Made by a program: the position numbers and the translations under genes | Shown: positions 7,022 through 22,821 of the stretch, in pieces | Layout: the number at the start of each line of letters is the position of its first letter | Position numbering within the stretch: the stretch's first letter is position 1 | From: Alphaproteobacteria bacterium GM202ARS2 | GTDB taxonomy: Bacteria > Pseudomonadota > Alphaproteobacteria > GM7ARS4 | DNA length: 64,000 nt | NCBI GenBank assembly: GCA_014323835.1 | Contig: JACONH010000006.1 | Span: 1,756-65,755 of the forward strand | Direction: 5' to 3' | Notes under the pieces: generated by a model | Told to the model about the DNA's origin: nothing | Database searches by the model: none | Seen by the model: the letters and a program-made list of their open reading frames with translations, nothing else

Positions 7022-7534
7022 TTACGCCCGAATCAGCGGCACGTTACCGCCACCAGCGACACCCTTGTCGTTACCGTTGTCTTTACTTCCGTTGCCCGCC
7101 GCTTTCGGTAGTTTAACATCTGCAACCGGATTAACAAGATATTTTGACCACCGCTCGACGCTATCGACAAAACGCCCAATGGTGTCTTCCAGCACCGACA
7201 AGTCGAGGCCGACCGCCGACAACTGTAACGTCATGACCACGTTGTCCTCGCCGGGATTGAGACTGAGGGTTGCCCCTTCCGTCTCCGTCCAACGATAGTT
7301 GGCTTCCATCAGACGCCGTAAGACTTTTTCTTTGTTCTCAGCGGGCAACTCTTGCACAAAACTGAAAAGATAAAGAAAATCTTGACGAGATTCATAGAGC
7401 AACAACAACGTAATCGTATCATCGAATTGCAATAAACAGCCGTCATTATCGTCAAAGTACAGCTCATCAAGCCCAATGGACTTGCCAAGTTCTGCCAACA
7501 AGACATCTATCGGACGATTCTTACGTTCAGCCAT
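7022..7534 (-). CDS. CesT/Tir-type secretion chaperone-like protein
   Basis: 170 residues from the ATG at 7534, preceded by GGGAGATAAAAAAC, a good ribosome site. The longer frame to 7615 begins with residues unlike the family, so I reject that start. The order LLAELGKSIGLDEL, then GCLLQFDDTITLLL, LYLFSFVQELP, LRRLMEANYRW, GATLSLNP and a C-terminal FVDSVERWSKYL follows the type III secretion chaperone family CesT (PF05932) closely. Such proteins are small acidic dimers that bind an effector's N-terminus. The Lys/Gly/Asn-rich tail after residue 130 is extra. No type III secretion gene is visible in this window. It could instead be a YbjN-like relative of the same fold serving the neighbouring envelope cassette. 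Confidence 0.65.
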   Translation of the reverse strand: MAERKNRPIDVLLAELGKSIGLDELYFDDNDGCLLQFDDTITLLLLYESRQDFLYLFSFVQELPAENKEKVLRRLMEANYRWTETEGATLSLNPGEDNVVMTLQLSAVGLDLSVLEDTIGRFVDSVERWSKYLVNPVADVKLPKAAGNGSKDNGNDKGVAGGGNVPLIRA

Positions 7535-7706
7535 GTTTTTTATCTCCCAATACCACGCAGGCTCGCGTAGCTTCTTGAACGTATACGTGTCCACTCCGCC
7601 ACGTTCGTGCCACATTTCATAAGGTAAAACACCTTACATAGAAATAATACAAAATGTTTTATATCATAACTCCTTACAAACGTACAATCTGCAACAGATT
7701 AATTTC

Positions 7707-8459
7707 TTAAATCTCTAATACTCGGGATAGGATACTGATGATGTCTGCTTGATGAGATTCGCTCAACATACCAAAAACACGAATAATATCCAGCACCATA
7801 CAAGAATCCTTTTGACAAAGAAAAAATGACCCCTCCTCTTTCGTAGAAGCAGTTCTCCCCAGCAGAGGTGAAAGAGCCATGATACTTTTCACAGGTATAC
7901 ACAGATAAAGCATTGGTTGTACACCAACCGCACGTTGCTTTTCTCTGATTGTAATCTCTACTGTAAGGTCACCCTTCCTACGTTGGTACACAAGTTGCGG
8001 ATAAGAAAGAGTAAGCCTGTAAAAAGCTAAACCATTCAAACGTTCTTTTATGGGCTCACTGCGCTCGATTTGGTAATCTCGATGATGAGACAACAAGTCT
8101 GTCTGCTTCAAATTCATAAGTTGTTGCAATAACAGCTCTAAATCATTTTTCTCAACAAACCCCCACCGATAAAAATAATAAAGATACTCCGACAGCTCAT
8201 AAAATGATTTTTTTATGCCCCTGTAACCCACAAAAGTAACATCAGGAATAGTACTAAAAGACTGCCGTCCTTCCTCTTCATCATAGCTTATTTGCCATTC
8301 GATGTATGTGTTCGATGTAAAGCAATCTCGTTTTGTTGCCACTGGTCGTCCATACTGGTACGGTTCGTCTCTTTTTTTAACCCGTACTTTCCCTGTGGGT
8401 GTGGTCAAAGGCAGGCGTATCTCTATTTTGCGTTCGACTTCATGTATATGTGCTCGCAT
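7707..8459 (-). CDS. R.PabI-like restriction enzyme (DNA glycosylase type), probable
   Basis: 250 residues, in an AT-rich island, with its start overlapping the 3' end of a DNA adenine methyltransferase gene by 20 bases. That is typical of a restriction-modification pair. R.PabI of Pyrococcus abyssi (GTAC) acts as an adenine glycosylase. From memory its key residues include Arg26/Arg32, Glu63–Tyr68, Lys154–Gln155 and His211–Asp214 near the C-terminus. Here R26/R30, E54–Y59 (same spacing of five), K174–Q175 and H236–D239 (same spacing of three, 11 residues from the end) fall in matching order. No PD-(D/E)xK or HNH motif is evident. The match rests on recalled residues rather than an alignment. 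If it is wrong, this is still the probable nuclease partner of the methyltransferase. Confidence 0.6.
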   Translation of the reverse strand: MRAHIHEVERKIEIRLPLTTPTGKVRVKKRDEPYQYGRPVATKRDCFTSNTYIEWQISYDEEEGRQSFSTIPDVTFVGYRGIKKSFYELSEYLYYFYRWGFVEKNDLELLLQQLMNLKQTDLLSHHRDYQIERSEPIKERLNGLAFYRLTLSYPQLVYQRRKGDLTVEITIREKQRAVGVQPMLYLCIPVKSIMALSPLLGRTASTKEEGSFFLCQKDSCMVLDIIRVFGMLSESHQADIISILSRVLEI

Positions 8460-9648
8460 GGCATTCCCCTAGCAGTGCAAAGAAGTATTCGTTTATTTTT
8501 TGTTTATTCGCGTCTGGGAGACGATACTGAGAAAGGTGAGACTTTAAGTACGGATGGTGTTGCAGAGCATCTGATAGAAAGTATCCTCTATATCGAGAAT
8601 ACAAGTTATTCTGTATCATAACATCGCAGTTGCCAAAATAGTACGGGATACGACTGAGATTTCTTTTGAATACATCGACATAAATATAATAATTGAGTTT
8701 ATTTTTATCGATAACGACTGCGTTGTGGCTATATTTTTTCACAAAAGTCTTATTTCTCTTGAGCGCGTTGATATCTCGCATTGTCCAAAAGAAAAGAGGA
8801 TTTTTGCCAAGACATTTTTTTTTCTTTGGATATTTATCTATATACTGGTCAATGAATTCATAGCGATTCAGGCACAAAGTTCCACCACCCTGAATTTTGA
8901 ATACAAAGTTTTTGATATCCTCATAAGTCATCCCTTCAGCATGGCGCTTATAAAGGGCGATGATGATAGGAAAATGCGTTGTTTTCGATGCTTCCGCAAA
9001 GCACGCGCTACTTACGATTCGCCCATCCATCAATCGATAGTTACGCATGAATTCTTTTATTGATTGAAAATTGGCTTTTTTAATGATATACGACAAAGGA
9101 TGCAAAACACAGACAATGTCTGCTCTGAGCTTATTATAGGCTAGAAGAAAAGACATCCCCAAATCTCTGCACCTCAAATCGTCATCTATCTCGAAGGCAG
9201 CCTGTTTGATACGACGGCGAATAAGCGAGGTTCTGTCATTGTACGGTGGATTGCCAACAATGACCAAATTGGCATCCTCTGGAATATGAAATGTCTTCCT
9301 GTCAACGCGTTGCAAGGCATTTCGATGAAAAAATGATACGTGCCTGTGATATTTCTGTGCCATCTGTACAGCGACAGCGTCACTATCACACCCTATAACT
9401 GTGCATGTACCCCACTGACTTAAAAACGAACCATAACCACAAGCATTGTCAAGAATGAACGAGTCTTTTTTGATGTGGTTCTTAACCAAAGCTCGTCCAA
9501 TCTCAACGATTTCGTCAGGCGTGTAATAACCTCCCCGATTGACCCGTTCTTTGTAATCAAGATGTTTCTGGTGACCAGCATGAAACCCGAATAAGTCAGT
9601 CGCATTTGCCATTGTTCTATCATTGAATACAAACCTCTGGATGTACAT
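8440..9648 (-). CDS. DNA N6-adenine methyltransferase of a restriction-modification pair
   Basis: 402 residues with the class I methyltransferase layout. YYTP lies at residues 41–44 (motif X, SAM/target-strand contact), DNACGYGSFL at about 67–76 (motif I, SAM binding) and NPPY at 133–136 (motif IV, the catalytic loop of N6-adenine and N4-cytosine enzymes). The C-terminal half (about 200–402) is unlike common families and probably recognises the target. If the partner is R.PabI-like, the expected target is GTAC (inference). Two starts are possible: ATG 9648, or ATG 9612, giving a protein that begins MANATD. Lower GC than the flanking genes suggests acquisition by transfer. The gene lies 91 bases downstream of bioB. 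Confidence 0.85.
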   Translation of the reverse strand: MYIQRFVFNDRTMANATDLFGFHAGHQKHLDYKERVNRGGYYTPDEIVEIGRALVKNHIKKDSFILDNACGYGSFLSQWGTCTVIGCDSDAVAVQMAQKYHRHVSFFHRNALQRVDRKTFHIPEDANLVIVGNPPYNDRTSLIRRRIKQAAFEIDDDLRCRDLGMSFLLAYNKLRADIVCVLHPLSYIIKKANFQSIKEFMRNYRLMDGRIVSSACFAEASKTTHFPIIIALYKRHAEGMTYEDIKNFVFKIQGGGTLCLNRYEFIDQYIDKYPKKKKCLGKNPLFFWTMRDINALKRNKTFVKKYSHNAVVIDKNKLNYYIYVDVFKRNLSRIPYYFGNCDVMIQNNLYSRYRGYFLSDALQHHPYLKSHLSQYRLPDANKQKINEYFFALLGECHASTYT

Positions 9649-9739
9649 TTAAGGTAATGTGTCAAGCCATGTCAACAAATTGTTGTATATCTATAGCACG
9701 ACCTTAACTACATCTAGTTGTCAAGGCTATCCTTCAATT

Positions 9740-10771
9740 CTAGTTCGTGGCTCTCTGTAGAGTCCGCTCCGTAGGCTCAGGTGCTTGCAGTCCTAAGTTA
9801 TCCATTAAGGCTTTATCGTCATCGCAGTCGTTATTATCGGTGGTGAGAAGTTTATCGCCGAAGAAAATCGAGTTTGCTCCTGCGTAAAAGCATAGTGCCT
9901 GTGCTTCTGAGCTGAGTGCAGCCCGTCCTGCCGACAGGCGCACCCGTGTCTGCGGCATGACGATGCGTGTTGCCGCGCACATCCGCACCATATCGAACGG
10001 ATCAATAGGCGGTTGGTCTTCTAGGGGCGTGCCTTCTACCGCAACAAGAGCATTAATCGGCACACTTTCTGGGTGGGGCTGTAAGCTGCTCAACACAACG
10101 AGCAGTTCGGCTCGGTCTTGGAGACTTTCGCCCATGCCGATGATACCGCCGCAACACAGCTGGACTCCGCTGGCTCGCACATGGGCAAGGGTGCGCAGAC
10201 GGTCTTCATAGCGCCGCGTCGTAATAATCCGCTCATAAAAAGAGGGTCCCGAATCCAAATTATGATTATAGGCGGTCAGACCCGCCTGTGCTAACCGCTG
10301 TGCTTGTTTTTGCGTCAGCATGCCGAGAGTCACGCATGCTTCCATGCCAAGTGCGCGCACCGCCCGCACCATCGCCAGCACCGCGTCGAAGTCTTTGCCA
10401 TCTTTAACGCTCCGCCAAGCACTACCCATACAAAATCGCGTTGCCCCCCGTTGGCGTGCCTTTTTTGCTGCTGCTTTGACCGCCTGCACGTCCATCAGTT
10501 TGTCGGCTTTCACATGCGTGCGGTAGCGTGCCGACTGCGGACAATAGGCACAATCTTCGGGGCAACCGCCACTCTTAATACTCAGCAGGTTCGCCAGCTG
10601 GACATCATCACGCACATGGTGAGCACGATGCACCGACCGAGCCTTGTCCAACAACGCCAATAAAGGTGACGATAACAACGCAACCACTTCCTCTTGCTGC
10701 CAGTCATGGCGTATAAAAGAAGAAGGGGAGACGGACGAACCAGAGGAGGAAAGAGAACGGGGTGTTACCAT
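9740..10771 (-). CDS. bioB: Biotin synthase
   Basis: 343 residues from the ATG at 10771; upstream codons in the same frame read through low-quality sequence. BioB is a radical-SAM enzyme that inserts sulfur into dethiobiotin. The SAM-cluster motif C-x3-C-x2-C is at residues 70, 74 and 77 ([13 protein letters not shown]). The ligands of the sacrificial [2Fe-2S] cluster are visible as [19 protein letters not shown] and [11 protein letters not shown], with RLSAGRAAL supplying the arginine. All expected catalytic residues are present. The N-terminal 20 residues are Ser-rich and probably dispensable. No other biotin gene is in the window. It is divergent from nnrDE with only 24 bases between the starts, so both promoters must lie partly within coding sequence. 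Confidence 0.95.
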
Positions 10772-10795
10772 AGCCCCGCCACTATACCTGAAATT

Positions 10796-12388
10796 ATGTC
10801 GTCGATGCAAGCCACCTCCTACCCTCTTTCCCTTTTGCTTCTGAATCAAAGGCAAGCCCGCGTGGCTGATGCCCACGCGACCGACAAAGCCATGACCTCC
10901 CTCCAGCTCATGGAGAACGCCGCCCAGCACGTAGCCCGCCATGCCGAACGCATGCTCATGACCACAACAAAAAAGAAAGTCCTCGTCCTCACAGGCCCCG
11001 GCAACAACGGCGGCGACGGCTTCGCTACCGCACGACTCCTACAGAAAAATCACGATGTCACGTGCATCGCCGCAACGACGTCCTTACGTGGCGATGCTGC
11101 CACGATGGCAAAAAAATGGCAGGGCACCACGTTACCCCTATCCGCTATGGAATCGTACCGCCCGTTGCTTGCCGACAGCCTTATCATCGATGGGTTGTTT
11201 GGCACCGGCTTGACTCGTGACCTTACAGGCGACTATCAGCGTCTTATCGCGCTACTTGCGGACACACAAAGCACCATTCTTGCTATCGATATACCCAGCG
11301 GTATCGACAGCGATAGCGGGTGCGTGCTCGGCTCTGCCATTCATGCCCAAAGCACTATAACGTTTTTTGCCCGCAAGCCTTGCCACCTTCTCCAGCCCGG
11401 CAAAGCACACAGCGGTTCTGTCCATGTTGTCGATATAACCGCCAAGCCCGCCTTACATTCTGCCTGTCTGCGTCATGCTTGCACACAAGCCCCCACTATC
11501 CTTCGTAACCATCCGTTGCTGTGGCGCGACTCTTTCCCACGTCCGCAACCACAAGACCATAAATACAGCCGCGGCGTGTGTGCCTTCTATGGCGCATCGT
11601 TACTCGGTGCCCATGCCCTGGCAACAAACAGTGCCCTACACAGCGGATGCGGTATGGTTATCGCCACGACTCCCTCTGGTACGCCCTCTGGCATGCCCCC
11701 CCACATGGTATCGCCTTGCGTTGTCGTCCGAGAAAATGCCGACTGGCTTGAGCTCTTGCGAGATACCCGCATCAAAGCTTACGCTATGGGGCATGGCATG
11801 ATGATTAGTGCTTCCTATCAAAAACTGCTCGTCGAGAGTTTGGCTATTCTGCGGGAACGCAACGATAAGCCTGTGCTGATTCTCGATGGCGGCGCACTGC
11901 AAGCCTTCATCGTTAACAAGCTGGCGCACACCTATCCCTCGCTACAGGTGATTTTGACCCCACACCACGGCGAAGCACAACGGTGCTTCCCCGACATTGC
12001 CCTCGACAATAAGTGCCTCGCAGCACAAACAATGGCACGCCAAACCCAAGCCATTGTCGTGCTGAAAGGTAACGACACCGTTATCGCTCATGCCACTCAG
12101 GACACCGCCGCCGACTCCCTTTTTCCTGTCGTCATCAATGATCATGCGCCTTCTTCTCTTGCGGCGGCGGGGAGCGGCGATGTGCTTGTCGGCATCCTTG
12201 CGAGCTTCTGCGCGGCAATGCCTGCCCCCCTTACGTGGCAAGCCTGCTTAGCGGGCGTCTATCTCCATGGGGAAGCCGCCTATCTCGCCCAGCGTCGTAA
12301 CCCGCACGTTCCGCTTGTCGCCAGCATGCTCCCACGTTTTCTCCGTCAAGCCCTTGCTCGATGCGCGCCAACACATTACAACGTGTAA
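10796..12388 (+). CDS. nnr: Bifunctional NAD(P)H-hydrate epimerase/dehydratase
   Basis: 530 residues combining two repair enzymes for hydrated NAD(P)H. The N-terminal YjeF/NnrE epimerase domain (about 10–220) shows GPGNNGGDG at 67–75 and [11 protein letters not shown]. The C-terminal NnrD dehydratase domain (about 240–525) has the ribokinase-like fold, with [10 protein letters not shown] and the GSGDVLVG anion-hole motif near residue 458. The fusion is the usual bacterial form. I chose the ATG at 10796 because the frame further upstream overlaps the bioB start and gives an Arg/Gly-rich sequence foreign to the family. A second ATG at 10805 is equally possible. It ends 25 bases before the tRNA-Leu gene. 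Confidence 0.92.
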
Positions 12389-19432: not shown

Positions 19433-22069
19433 ATGCTTCGTTATCTCCGTGTTGTTGTCTGGCTTGCTCTTTTTTGTCGCCGTTACGCGCTGATTATCTT
19501 TCTCAGCACAGCACTCGGCACAGTGTTTGCTGTGGACTATATCGCCAACAACCTCAAGCTCAATACATCGACGACGGACATGTTGGCACCGCACCTAGAT
19601 TTTCGTGTCAACAGTGAGCGTCTCAAAAATGTTTTTCCTGCCACTCGCGATACGCTGGTTGTCATTGTCGAAGCCGACAGCGAAGCCATCGCCTATGAAG
19701 GCTCCACGTACCTTCATCGGGCGTTATCCACCCGTAGTGACTTGTTCCGCAATGTCTTTAGTGCTGCCCATGAAGACTATTTTATCGAGAATGGCTTGCT
19801 GTTCCAAGACCTCGATCGTCTACAGCTCTACAATGAAAATCTTGTAGACGCTCAGCCCTTCATTGCCACCTTTGCTGGCGATAAGACCTTGCGTGGTTTG
19901 TTTGCTGCTCTCGAGCTGTTCAGCCGCGAGCGCGAGCGTCTACCAGAAGACAAAAAAGAGTTGCTCTATGACATTCAAGAGTTCATTGCGCGCACCATCG
20001 AAGCCATCAAAGACAACAAAAAGCCGCCTGCCGTGCCCTGGAGCGATATTTTCGGTCGCTCGCCCGACTCGGGGGCAAAACGTTTTCTTCTAGTCACCGA
20101 CCCGGTGCTTGATTTTGCCTCCCTAGCACCCGCAGCCAAAGTTATCGACTTTGTGCGCCAACAAGTTGACTTGATTAACAAGCGTTACGCCTTAAGCCTA
20201 ACGGTTAATTTCAGTGGCAATGTTGCCCTCGAGGAAGAAGAAAAGGCAAGCGTCATCAGCGGCGCCACCTACGCCGGCCTTCTGGCTATGGTGCTGGTGG
20301 GCTTCCTCGTCATACGGGGCTTACACTCGTGGCGACTGGCGTTGTCGGTTTTGCTCGCCTTGCTGTTCGGCTTGATTATGACAACAGCCTTCGCCACCGC
20401 CGCCATTGGCCATCTCAATTTAATCTCAACAGCCTTTGCCGTCTTGTTCATCGGCATCGGCGTCGATTTCGGTATTCAAATATGTTCCCGCTACCTCGAA
20501 ATCACGTTGCGTAAAAAGGATCCCGATATTTACATCGATGAGCGTCTCGGAGAAGCCATCCGCTCTCTCGGTGTGCCTCTCGGCCTTGCTGCTCTTGCTG
20601 GTTCAGGCGGCTTTTTTGCCTTTGCCCCTACCGACTACGCCGGCATGTCCGAGTTGGGTATCATCGCCGGCGGCGGACTCATCATTGCTTTCTTGACAAA
20701 CTTTACGCTCCTACCCGCCCTGTTGTCCACGTTCTGTCGCCGAGTCCACATCCAGCAAACCCCTTTCTATGGCGATGAAGAAAGTCACTTTACCCCTATT
20801 GCCTGGCTTAAGCGTTTTCCCATTGCCATTACGGCTTTGGGCGTTACCTTTTTGGCGTGGTCGTCTTTCCATGCACCCACGTATCAGACCAACTTTGACC
20901 CGTTTGCTCTTTATGATCCCGACTCGCCGTCGGTGCGTGCCACAACCCGGCTCCTACAAGAGCGCGAATCGCAGCTGTATGCCATACGTATTCTTGCCAA
21001 CGGACTGGCACAAGCAAAACGAATCAAAAAACAACTACAAGACGACCCTCAAGTCGGCACCGTCTTTGCCATCGATGAATTCCTCCCCACCAATATTGCC
21101 GAAAAAGCAAAGGTCATCGACGATATGGCTTTCTTTTTGTTACCTTCGTTGCAAGGCGGTGACAGGGCGCACACCATCAACCCCGAAAGACGGCGCGCTG
21201 CCGCGCAATCGTGGCGCAGTCACCTCACCGAAGAGGACAACCCTCGTTTGAAAGAAGCCCTCGACTGGCTCATCGAAGACGACAGCAACGCCACCGAAAG
21301 AATCGAGTATGCTTTGTTGCGGGGCTTGCCTCTGCAAATGAAAATTCTCGAAAGAGCCTTACAGCCGACCCTCGTCGGCAAACGAACCATCTCTATCGAG
21401 GACTTACCCATCTCGTTGCGCAAACTGACCCTCAACATTAACAGGCAAAACATCGTAACGGTTCTGCCCGCCCGTGATGTCCGTAATGACCCGCAAGCTC
21501 TCGAGGATTTTGTCGATTCGGTGCGCAGCAAAATCCCCCAAGCAACGGGCGCCCCCGTCATCGTCATCGAAGGCAAACGAGAAGTGCTCCGTGCCTTTTT
21601 CGAAGCCGGCGTTCTTGCCCTCGTTTTTGTTTTTATTCTGCTCCTCATCTCGCTACGTAACATCGAAGACAGCATCCTCGCTTTTGTGCCTCTGCTTGCT
21701 GCTGCGGTCATGACTCTTGCGGTTGCGGTCTGGCTCGATTTGCCCCTCAATTTTGCCAATATTATTGCCCTGCCCTTGCTGTTTAGCCTCGGGGTCTCCT
21801 ACGGCATATACTTGCTCTGGCAGGAACGCCAAAGCGACACCCTCTATGCCCTGATGGTCAGTTCGACGCCTCGTGCTATTCTCTACAGTGCTTTAACGAC
21901 CATGGCTGGTTTTGGCTCTCTTGCGATTTCGTCCCATCGCGGCACCGCCAGCATGGGGCTGATGCTCCTGATTTCGCTTCTTGCGGTTCTCATCAATAGC
22001 CTGATTTTCTTACCTGCCGTGCTCCAGATTCGGCAAAATGTACGCCAATGGCTCGACAACAAAGCGTAA
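19433..22069 (+). CDS. hpnN: Hopanoid transporter HpnN, RND superfamily
   Basis: 878 residues from the ATG at 19433; the frame opens earlier at a GTG (19346), but those 29 residues have no family character. It has two RND repeats. TM1 is near residue 20, and a large periplasmic domain (about 45–280) is followed by a helix cluster with FAVLFIGIGVDFGIQICSRY. A second TM leads to a second periplasmic domain, and the last helix cluster contains LFSLGVSYGIYLLW. In Rhodopseudomonas and Burkholderia HpnN moves hopanoids to the outer membrane. It is divergent from hpnM (155 bases apart) and overlaps the next gene by 22 bases. Confidence 0.9.
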   Translation: MLRYLRVVVWLALFCRRYALIIFLSTALGTVFAVDYIANNLKLNTSTTDMLAPHLDFRVNSERLKNVFPATRDTLVVIVEADSEAIAYEGSTYLHRALSTRSDLFRNVFSAAHEDYFIENGLLFQDLDRLQLYNENLVDAQPFIATFAGDKTLRGLFAALELFSRERERLPEDKKELLYDIQEFIARTIEAIKDNKKPPAVPWSDIFGRSPDSGAKRFLLVTDPVLDFASLAPAAKVIDFVRQQVDLINKRYALSLTVNFSGNVALEEEEKASVISGATYAGLLAMVLVGFLVIRGLHSWRLALSVLLALLFGLIMTTAFATAAIGHLNLISTAFAVLFIGIGVDFGIQICSRYLEITLRKKDPDIYIDERLGEAIRSLGVPLGLAALAGSGGFFAFAPTDYAGMSELGIIAGGGLIIAFLTNFTLLPALLSTFCRRVHIQQTPFYGDEESHFTPIAWLKRFPIAITALGVTFLAWSSFHAPTYQTNFDPFALYDPDSPSVRATTRLLQERESQLYAIRILANGLAQAKRIKKQLQDDPQVGTVFAIDEFLPTNIAEKAKVIDDMAFFLLPSLQGGDRAHTINPERRRAAAQSWRSHLTEEDNPRLKEALDWLIEDDSNATERIEYALLRGLPLQMKILERALQPTLVGKRTISIEDLPISLRKLTLNINRQNIVTVLPARDVRNDPQALEDFVDSVRSKIPQATGAPVIVIEGKREVLRAFFEAGVLALVFVFILLLISLRNIEDSILAFVPLLAAAVMTLAVAVWLDLPLNFANIIALPLLFSLGVSYGIYLLWQERQSDTLYALMVSSTPRAILYSALTTMAGFGSLAISSHRGTASMGLMLLISLLAVLINSLIFLPAVLQIRQNVRQWLDNKA

Positions 22070-22821
22070 AAGCCCTTATTCTCGCCGCTGGCATGGGGCA
22101 GCGTCTCAAACGTGACCACCCCAAAATTCTGCTGACCCTCGGACAGCACACCTTGTTGCACCGCCACGCTGTTTTGCTCGAGCACCACGGCATCGGCTCG
22201 CTCACCATCGTTGGCGGCTATCACTACGAACAGTTATGCCAAGCCTGTCGCCATCTGCCCACCAGCCTTGCTATCCATACGCTCGACAACAAAAGCTATG
22301 AACAAGGCAGTCTTGTGTCGTTGCATTGTGCTGTGCCGCTCCTTAAGAGCCTACAAAGCCACGAGCACGTGCTTTTGATGGACGGGGATGTCCTCTATGA
22401 CGAGCGTCTGCTCGGGGCGTTGCTGGCTTGTCCGCACCCCTGTTGCTTTTTGCGTGACCTCGATGGCGGAGACGATGAGGAAGCCGTCAAAATAACCACC
22501 CACAAACAGCGTATCACCGATGTAAGCAAAACCATCGCGGCAACGACTGTTTATGATACCATGGGCGAATCGGTCGGTTTCTTTCTTCTCGATGGCAAGC
22601 GGGCGCGCAAACTGGTTGCCCTCACCGAGCAATTCATGCACCGCCAACAGCTGGATGCGCCGCACGAAGAGGCTATGCGTGCCTTGGCTCTAGAAGAAGA
22701 CGCATCAGCTCTGACCACATGTGATATAACCGGGCTTCCTTGGCTCGAGATTGACTTTCCCGATGACCTTCGCCGCGCCCGCACCGCCATTCTTCCGCAC
22801 CTGTTACCCCTGCCCTCATGA
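22048..22821 (+). CDS. Sugar-phosphate/phosphocholine-type nucleotidyltransferase
   Basis: 257 residues of the NTP-transferase fold. The nucleotide loop LAAGMGQRLKRDHPKILL is canonical, unlike the loop of the PepM fusion. The body resembles LicC/PntC cytidylyltransferases: DNKSYEQGSLVSLHCAV recalls their N-x-Y-x3-NS-x-SL segment, and LLMDGDVLYDERLL is the metal-binding GDV motif. Likely substrates are a phosphonate such as aminoethylphosphonate, phosphocholine-like headgroups or a sugar phosphate; sequence alone does not decide. It overlaps hpnN by 22 bases and hpnA by four (ATGA), so it is translationally coupled to hopanoid genes on both sides. Confidence 0.8.
   Translation: MARQQSVKALILAAGMGQRLKRDHPKILLTLGQHTLLHRHAVLLEHHGIGSLTIVGGYHYEQLCQACRHLPTSLAIHTLDNKSYEQGSLVSLHCAVPLLKSLQSHEHVLLMDGDVLYDERLLGALLACPHPCCFLRDLDGGDDEEAVKITTHKQRITDVSKTIAATTVYDTMGESVGFFLLDGKRARKLVALTEQFMHRQQLDAPHEEAMRALALEEDASALTTCDITGLPWLEIDFPDDLRRARTAILPHLLPLPS

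Follow-up and report, generated by a model that had tools for sequence, protein, structure and literature searches.

The restriction DNA glycosylases of the R.PabI family are known from a small number of groups, and their catalytic and base-reading residues have been described. The activity that defines the family is excision of adenine at GTAC, which needs no divalent metal and does not hydrolyze phosphodiesters. A 2023 review places the family in the Helicobacteraceae and Campylobacteraceae and in a few hyperthermophilic archaea, and a 2015 survey extends the list to Brachyspira, Mycoplasma, Mucispirillum, and Caloramator (PMC4615327). In bacteria the published arrangement is a methyltransferase gene directly upstream of the restriction gene (PMC4615327), and the target of the Helicobacter homolog is GTAC according to published papers, not TCGA. 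The catalytic residues are Y52, H222, and D225 in R.CcoLI and Y68, H211, and D214 in R.PabI (PMC7806768). R.CcoLI reads its site with K17, R19, E47, Q49, and Y168 (G), Q164 and M166 (T), I50 and F215 (A), and Q158 (C) (PMC7806768). Its AP-lyase lysine, K71, lies on an inserted beta-sheet, and D53, N67, and K71 are brought near the active site by this sheet (PMC7806768).

A restriction gene (R) and a methyltransferase gene (M) of this kind are found in the window analyzed here, a stretch of 64,000 nucleotides from Alphaproteobacteria bacterium GM202ARS2 (genome G000). Both genes are present on the minus strand where the initial annotation had placed them (Table 1). M lies directly upstream of R, with 20 nt of overlap between the frames; the R frame is full length and has no internal stop. 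Scans of the locus for promoters and terminators gave little above shuffled expectation. The host had been described as alphaproteobacterial, and its 16S sequence does match alphaproteobacteria first, at about 86% over the 3' half only, which makes it a deep-branching member of the class.

Table 1. Coordinates of the predicted restriction-modification genes, the insert that holds them, and its flanks, in window positions.
Feature	Position	Strand	Description and evidence
R gene, predicted R.PabI-family (HALFPIPE) restriction DNA glycosylase	7707..8459	-	250 aa; Pfam, PDB, residue map, AlphaFold2/Foldseek
M gene, predicted gamma-class N6-adenine DNA methyltransferase	8440..9648	-	up to 402 aa; PADLOC, N6_Mtase, homologs
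Low-GC insert holding the pair	7620..9740		GC ~36-42% against 50-57% in the flanks; absent from sister genome G001
CesT/YbjN-like flanking gene, outside the system, at one insert edge	7022..7615	-	197 aa; Pfam PF05932 1.3e-25
bioB flanking gene, outside the system, at the other insert edge	9740..10942	-	PF06968/PF04055

Sequence searches and the modeled structure place R in the R.PabI/HALFPIPE restriction-glycosylase family. The resemblance to R.PabI, first proposed from the sequence alone, is far beyond chance. The Pfam profile PF09522 (R.Pab1 restriction endonuclease) matches R with E=8e-32 and 110 bits (cut-off 25 bits) over profile positions 1-118 of 119. Sequence searches of the PDB find R.CcoLI of Campylobacter coli (7cfa) with E=1.4e-37 and R.PabI with E=1.5e-19; NCBIfam has no model for R. 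Identity to other family members is 33-47%. The AlphaFold2 model, made with an alignment of 18 window and locus sequences, has a mean pLDDT of 92.2 and a pTM of 0.87, and its best Foldseek match in the PDB is 7cfa_A (E 1.5e-23, TM 0.82/0.88). All 16 significant matches are R.CcoLI or R.PabI chains, and the following match has an E value of 0.18.

The residues for catalysis and base reading are conserved in R. E54, Y59, K174, Q175, H236, and D239, which had been singled out as essential, occur at those numbers and align to R.PabI family positions. The catalytic triad Y59, H236, and D239 is identical to Y52, H222, and D225 of R.CcoLI, and K84 corresponds to the AP-lyase lysine K71 and is invariant in the 18 sequences. 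The putative GTAC readers are K24, R26, E54, Q56, and Y185 (G), Q181 and M183 (T), I57 and F229 (A), and Q175 (C). All ten are identical to those of R.CcoLI, and also to those of R.PabI, and they are invariant or nearly so throughout the family. This identity points to GTAC as the probable target, with methylation and base excision as the probable activities of the pair. The N67-K71 segment of R.CcoLI aligns to R without gaps. D53 is retained as D60, while N67 is replaced by R80 (the nearest relative, L003, has K), suggesting that the strength of the AP-lyase activity may differ.

R is linked to a methyltransferase gene of the cognate type. The M protein, METHYLTRANSFERASE, carries motifs I (DNACGYGSF) and IV (NPPY), which are marks of gamma-class adenine methyltransferases, and it matches N6_Mtase in Pfam and MTase_II PDLC03275 in PADLOC (2.3e-86). 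It is 41-51% identical to the products of M genes adjoining intact R.PabI homologs. The homology extends through the C-terminal recognition part, which the methyltransferases that accompany GTAC enzymes have in homologous form. Homology starts near residue 26, so translation may begin at a codon after the first ATG. Intact relatives (L001-L010 and the unbroken copies in Campylobacterota) show the same order, with a homologous M gene directly upstream of R and in most cases overlapping it.

The distribution of R homologs shows that the family is broader than reviews state. PF09522 is found in two of the 289 sampled genomes of the window's class, G000 and G107, and in the latter both R and M are in broken pieces (G107:C5 ~21100-22465; L014, L015, L136). 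Among Campylobacterota, 23 of 101 genomes have the profile, and many of the copies are broken. A scan of GTDB contigs with R found 12 relatives in MAGs labeled Poribacteria, Spirochaetes, Gammaproteobacteria, Nautiliaceae, Rickettsiales, Flavobacteriales, Aminicenantes, Desulfurobacteriaceae, and Deltaproteobacteria, where binning errors could affect single labels; no relative was found by the scan in viral contigs. The initial annotation held that known examples are few. This is true of the literature, and in the literature searched no alphaproteobacterial member was found, but it does not hold for genome data, which include at least eight further bacterial groups, a Rickettsiales MAG among them. 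A Flavobacteriales MAG has a second, weak PF09522 remnant with stops (G047:C312:2750-2980). The closest neighbor of the window in both the R and the M tree is the gammaproteobacterial L003 (weak support, 0.57 for R and 0.66 for M), and this like placement fits co-inheritance of the pair.

Comparison with the sister genome suggests that the pair was most likely acquired horizontally by insertion in the G000 line. Among the other genomes compared, G001 alone shares the family and order of G000. Its CesT/YbjN-like and bioB orthologs lie next to each other, their frames about 170 bp apart, and neither M nor R is present there; an M homolog was not found anywhere in G001. Loss of the pair from G001 is less likely because of the GC drop across the insert in G000. 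No clear target-site duplication was recognized at the insert edges. GTAC occurs 12 times in the 2.1-kb insert and 24 times in the remaining 62 kb of the window. The flanking CesT-family protein (type III secretion chaperone-like)/YbjN-like gene has LolA-like and MMPL/RND-type transporter genes downstream.

GTAC is avoided in the host genome, and the avoidance is older than the insert or independent of it. The motif counts cover 863 kb of G000, 320 kb of G001, and 300 kb of G107, with some stretches masked (N). In G000 the GTAC count is 0.30 of the maximal-order Markov expectation, the third lowest of the 256 tetramers behind GGCC and GATC, and in nine other genomes of the class the ratio is 0.64 to 1.22. 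However, G001 is also poor in GTAC (0.39-0.43) although it has neither gene, and the site is frequent within the insert. The depletion therefore cannot be credited to this insert, whose arrival looks recent from its GTAC content, and it is no sign of a long period of activity of this copy; GTAC avoidance was also rejected as proof of GTAC specificity. Both genomes avoid GATC (0.20-0.22) and GGCC (0.21-0.32) strongly, more so than GTAC, which suggests other long-lived restriction pressure. PabI and Ku are reported to be mutually exclusive across genomes (PMC10273834); Ku was not found in G000, in agreement with this. In the R.CcoLI/HpyAXII branch, GTAC avoidance and a lack of Ku are common traits but do not define membership. 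Unlike the rest of G000, two blocks of contig C9 are undepleted in GTAC (38/38 and 43/37 at L058 and L089), which may point to a mobile element or to misbinning of the contig.

Low GTAC counts also accompany most of the relatives. The ratio is 0 to 0.42 around nine of 11 relatives and 0.68-0.79 around the two from Poribacteria, based on small counts and with kinship ignored. In G107, with both genes broken, it is 0.03 (11 sites in 300 kb where 361 are expected), and ACGT and GGCC are equally low, so that palindrome avoidance either outlasts the broken genes or stems from other systems. The restriction-modification genes of L003 (L003:4637-6708) have eight GTAC sites in 2.1 kb, and their flanks have one where 11 are expected. 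Recent arrival is the simplest reading of GTAC-rich restriction-modification genes in GTAC-poor surroundings in two unrelated hosts; self-methylation may also play a part in control.

Overall it is very probable that the locus encodes a restriction-glycosylase system for GTAC, with M protecting and R excising adenine. M would methylate the adenine of GTAC in host DNA. A HALFPIPE dimer of R would unwind unmethylated GTAC, flip the adenine out, and hydrolyze its N-glycosidic bond by means of Y59, H236, and D239, giving abasic sites. K84 might then attack C1' and open the strand by beta-elimination, acting as an AP lyase; alternatively, this step could fall to a cellular AP endonuclease. If expressed, the pair could act against phages.

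Other explanations account for the locus less well. An ordinary restriction enzyme that hydrolyzes phosphodiester bonds could also stand beside a methyltransferase, and the M-R arrangement by itself would fit. The initial annotation had remarked that R lacks the usual nuclease motifs, and in fact no PD-(D/E)xK, HNH, GIY-YIG, or PLD profile in Pfam, NCBIfam, or PADLOC matches it. The annotation had also named a missing profile match to R.PabI and a PD-(D/E)xK fold as findings that would count against its proposal, and neither was encountered. The model has the HALFPIPE fold, and a PD-(D/E)xK fold is excluded since the PDB returns only R.PabI and R.CcoLI as structural matches, so an ordinary nuclease is vanishingly improbable. 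It is also very unlikely that R is decayed or inactive and that the methyltransferase leads what is left of the locus, a frequent state in H. pylori. Family R genes break often, as in many Campylobacterota copies and in G107, but here the frame is uninterrupted, no active-site residue has been lost, and the model has high confidence.

Specificity that has moved off GTAC, together with that of the methyltransferase, would leave R in the R.PabI family but change its target. Several observations could be read in this way: R has just 33-47% identity to other members, the insert keeps its 12 sites in a GTAC-poor genome, and GATC and GGCC are avoided more than GTAC. However, the base readers are the same as in R.CcoLI and R.PabI and near-invariant in the family, the avoidance of GATC and GGCC extends to the sister genome, which lacks the pair, and a methylated insert would have no reason to lose sites soon after arrival. 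A shifted target thus has little probability, and recognition of GTAC is the preferred reading.

The locus would extend base-excising restriction to the Alphaproteobacteria and, with its relatives, to about eight further bacterial groups. The enzyme family is already known, and the pair adds to it a member with intact machinery in an unusual host. As a mesophilic member with an altered AP-lyase loop, R would be useful for comparative study of the coupling between glycosylase and lyase. In addition, the timing of restriction avoidance can be tested here, as the insert is rich in GTAC and the genome around it poor. A wider proposal, for and against which we see the case as evenly balanced, is that restriction glycosylases are a widespread bacterial defence, not mainly one of Campylobacterales, and that their visits leave a scar of GTAC depletion in several phyla that outlives the genes, as in G107.

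The window pair can be compared to four systems. L003, from a Gammaproteobacteria MAG, is nearest in both trees, though weakly supported, with identities of 43% (R) and 49% (M). R.PabI/M.PabI of Pyrococcus abyssi (2dvy, 3waz) has the family, the fold, and the catalytic and base-reading residues in common with the window R. However, R.PabI is without the AP-lyase insertion (PMC7806768), while R has the lysine, and the Pyrococcus genes are tail to tail (PMC4615327) where M and R are in tandem. HpyAXII of Helicobacter pylori (PMC10273834, PMC12366791) resembles the window pair in its bacterial branch, tandem M-R order, genes prone to decay, and GTAC-poor host genome. Its host is a different one, and in the window's host the poverty in GTAC is shared with a sister genome that lacks the pair. 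R.CcoLI/M.CcoLI of Campylobacter coli (7cfa, PMC7806768) has M and R in the same orientation with M first, as in the window, and the R proteins are ~32-37% identical over their full length, sharing the fold, the triad, the AP-lyase lysine, and the ten base readers. The hosts belong to different phyla, R has R80 for N67 and a few extra residues separating the AP-lyase lysine from the catalytic Tyr/Asp, and the C-terminal part of M is longer than in Campylobacterota homologs. With M upstream and the predicted AP-lyase lysine present, the window pair is by its sequence of the bacterial R.CcoLI/HpyAXII type and not of the archaeal R.PabI type.
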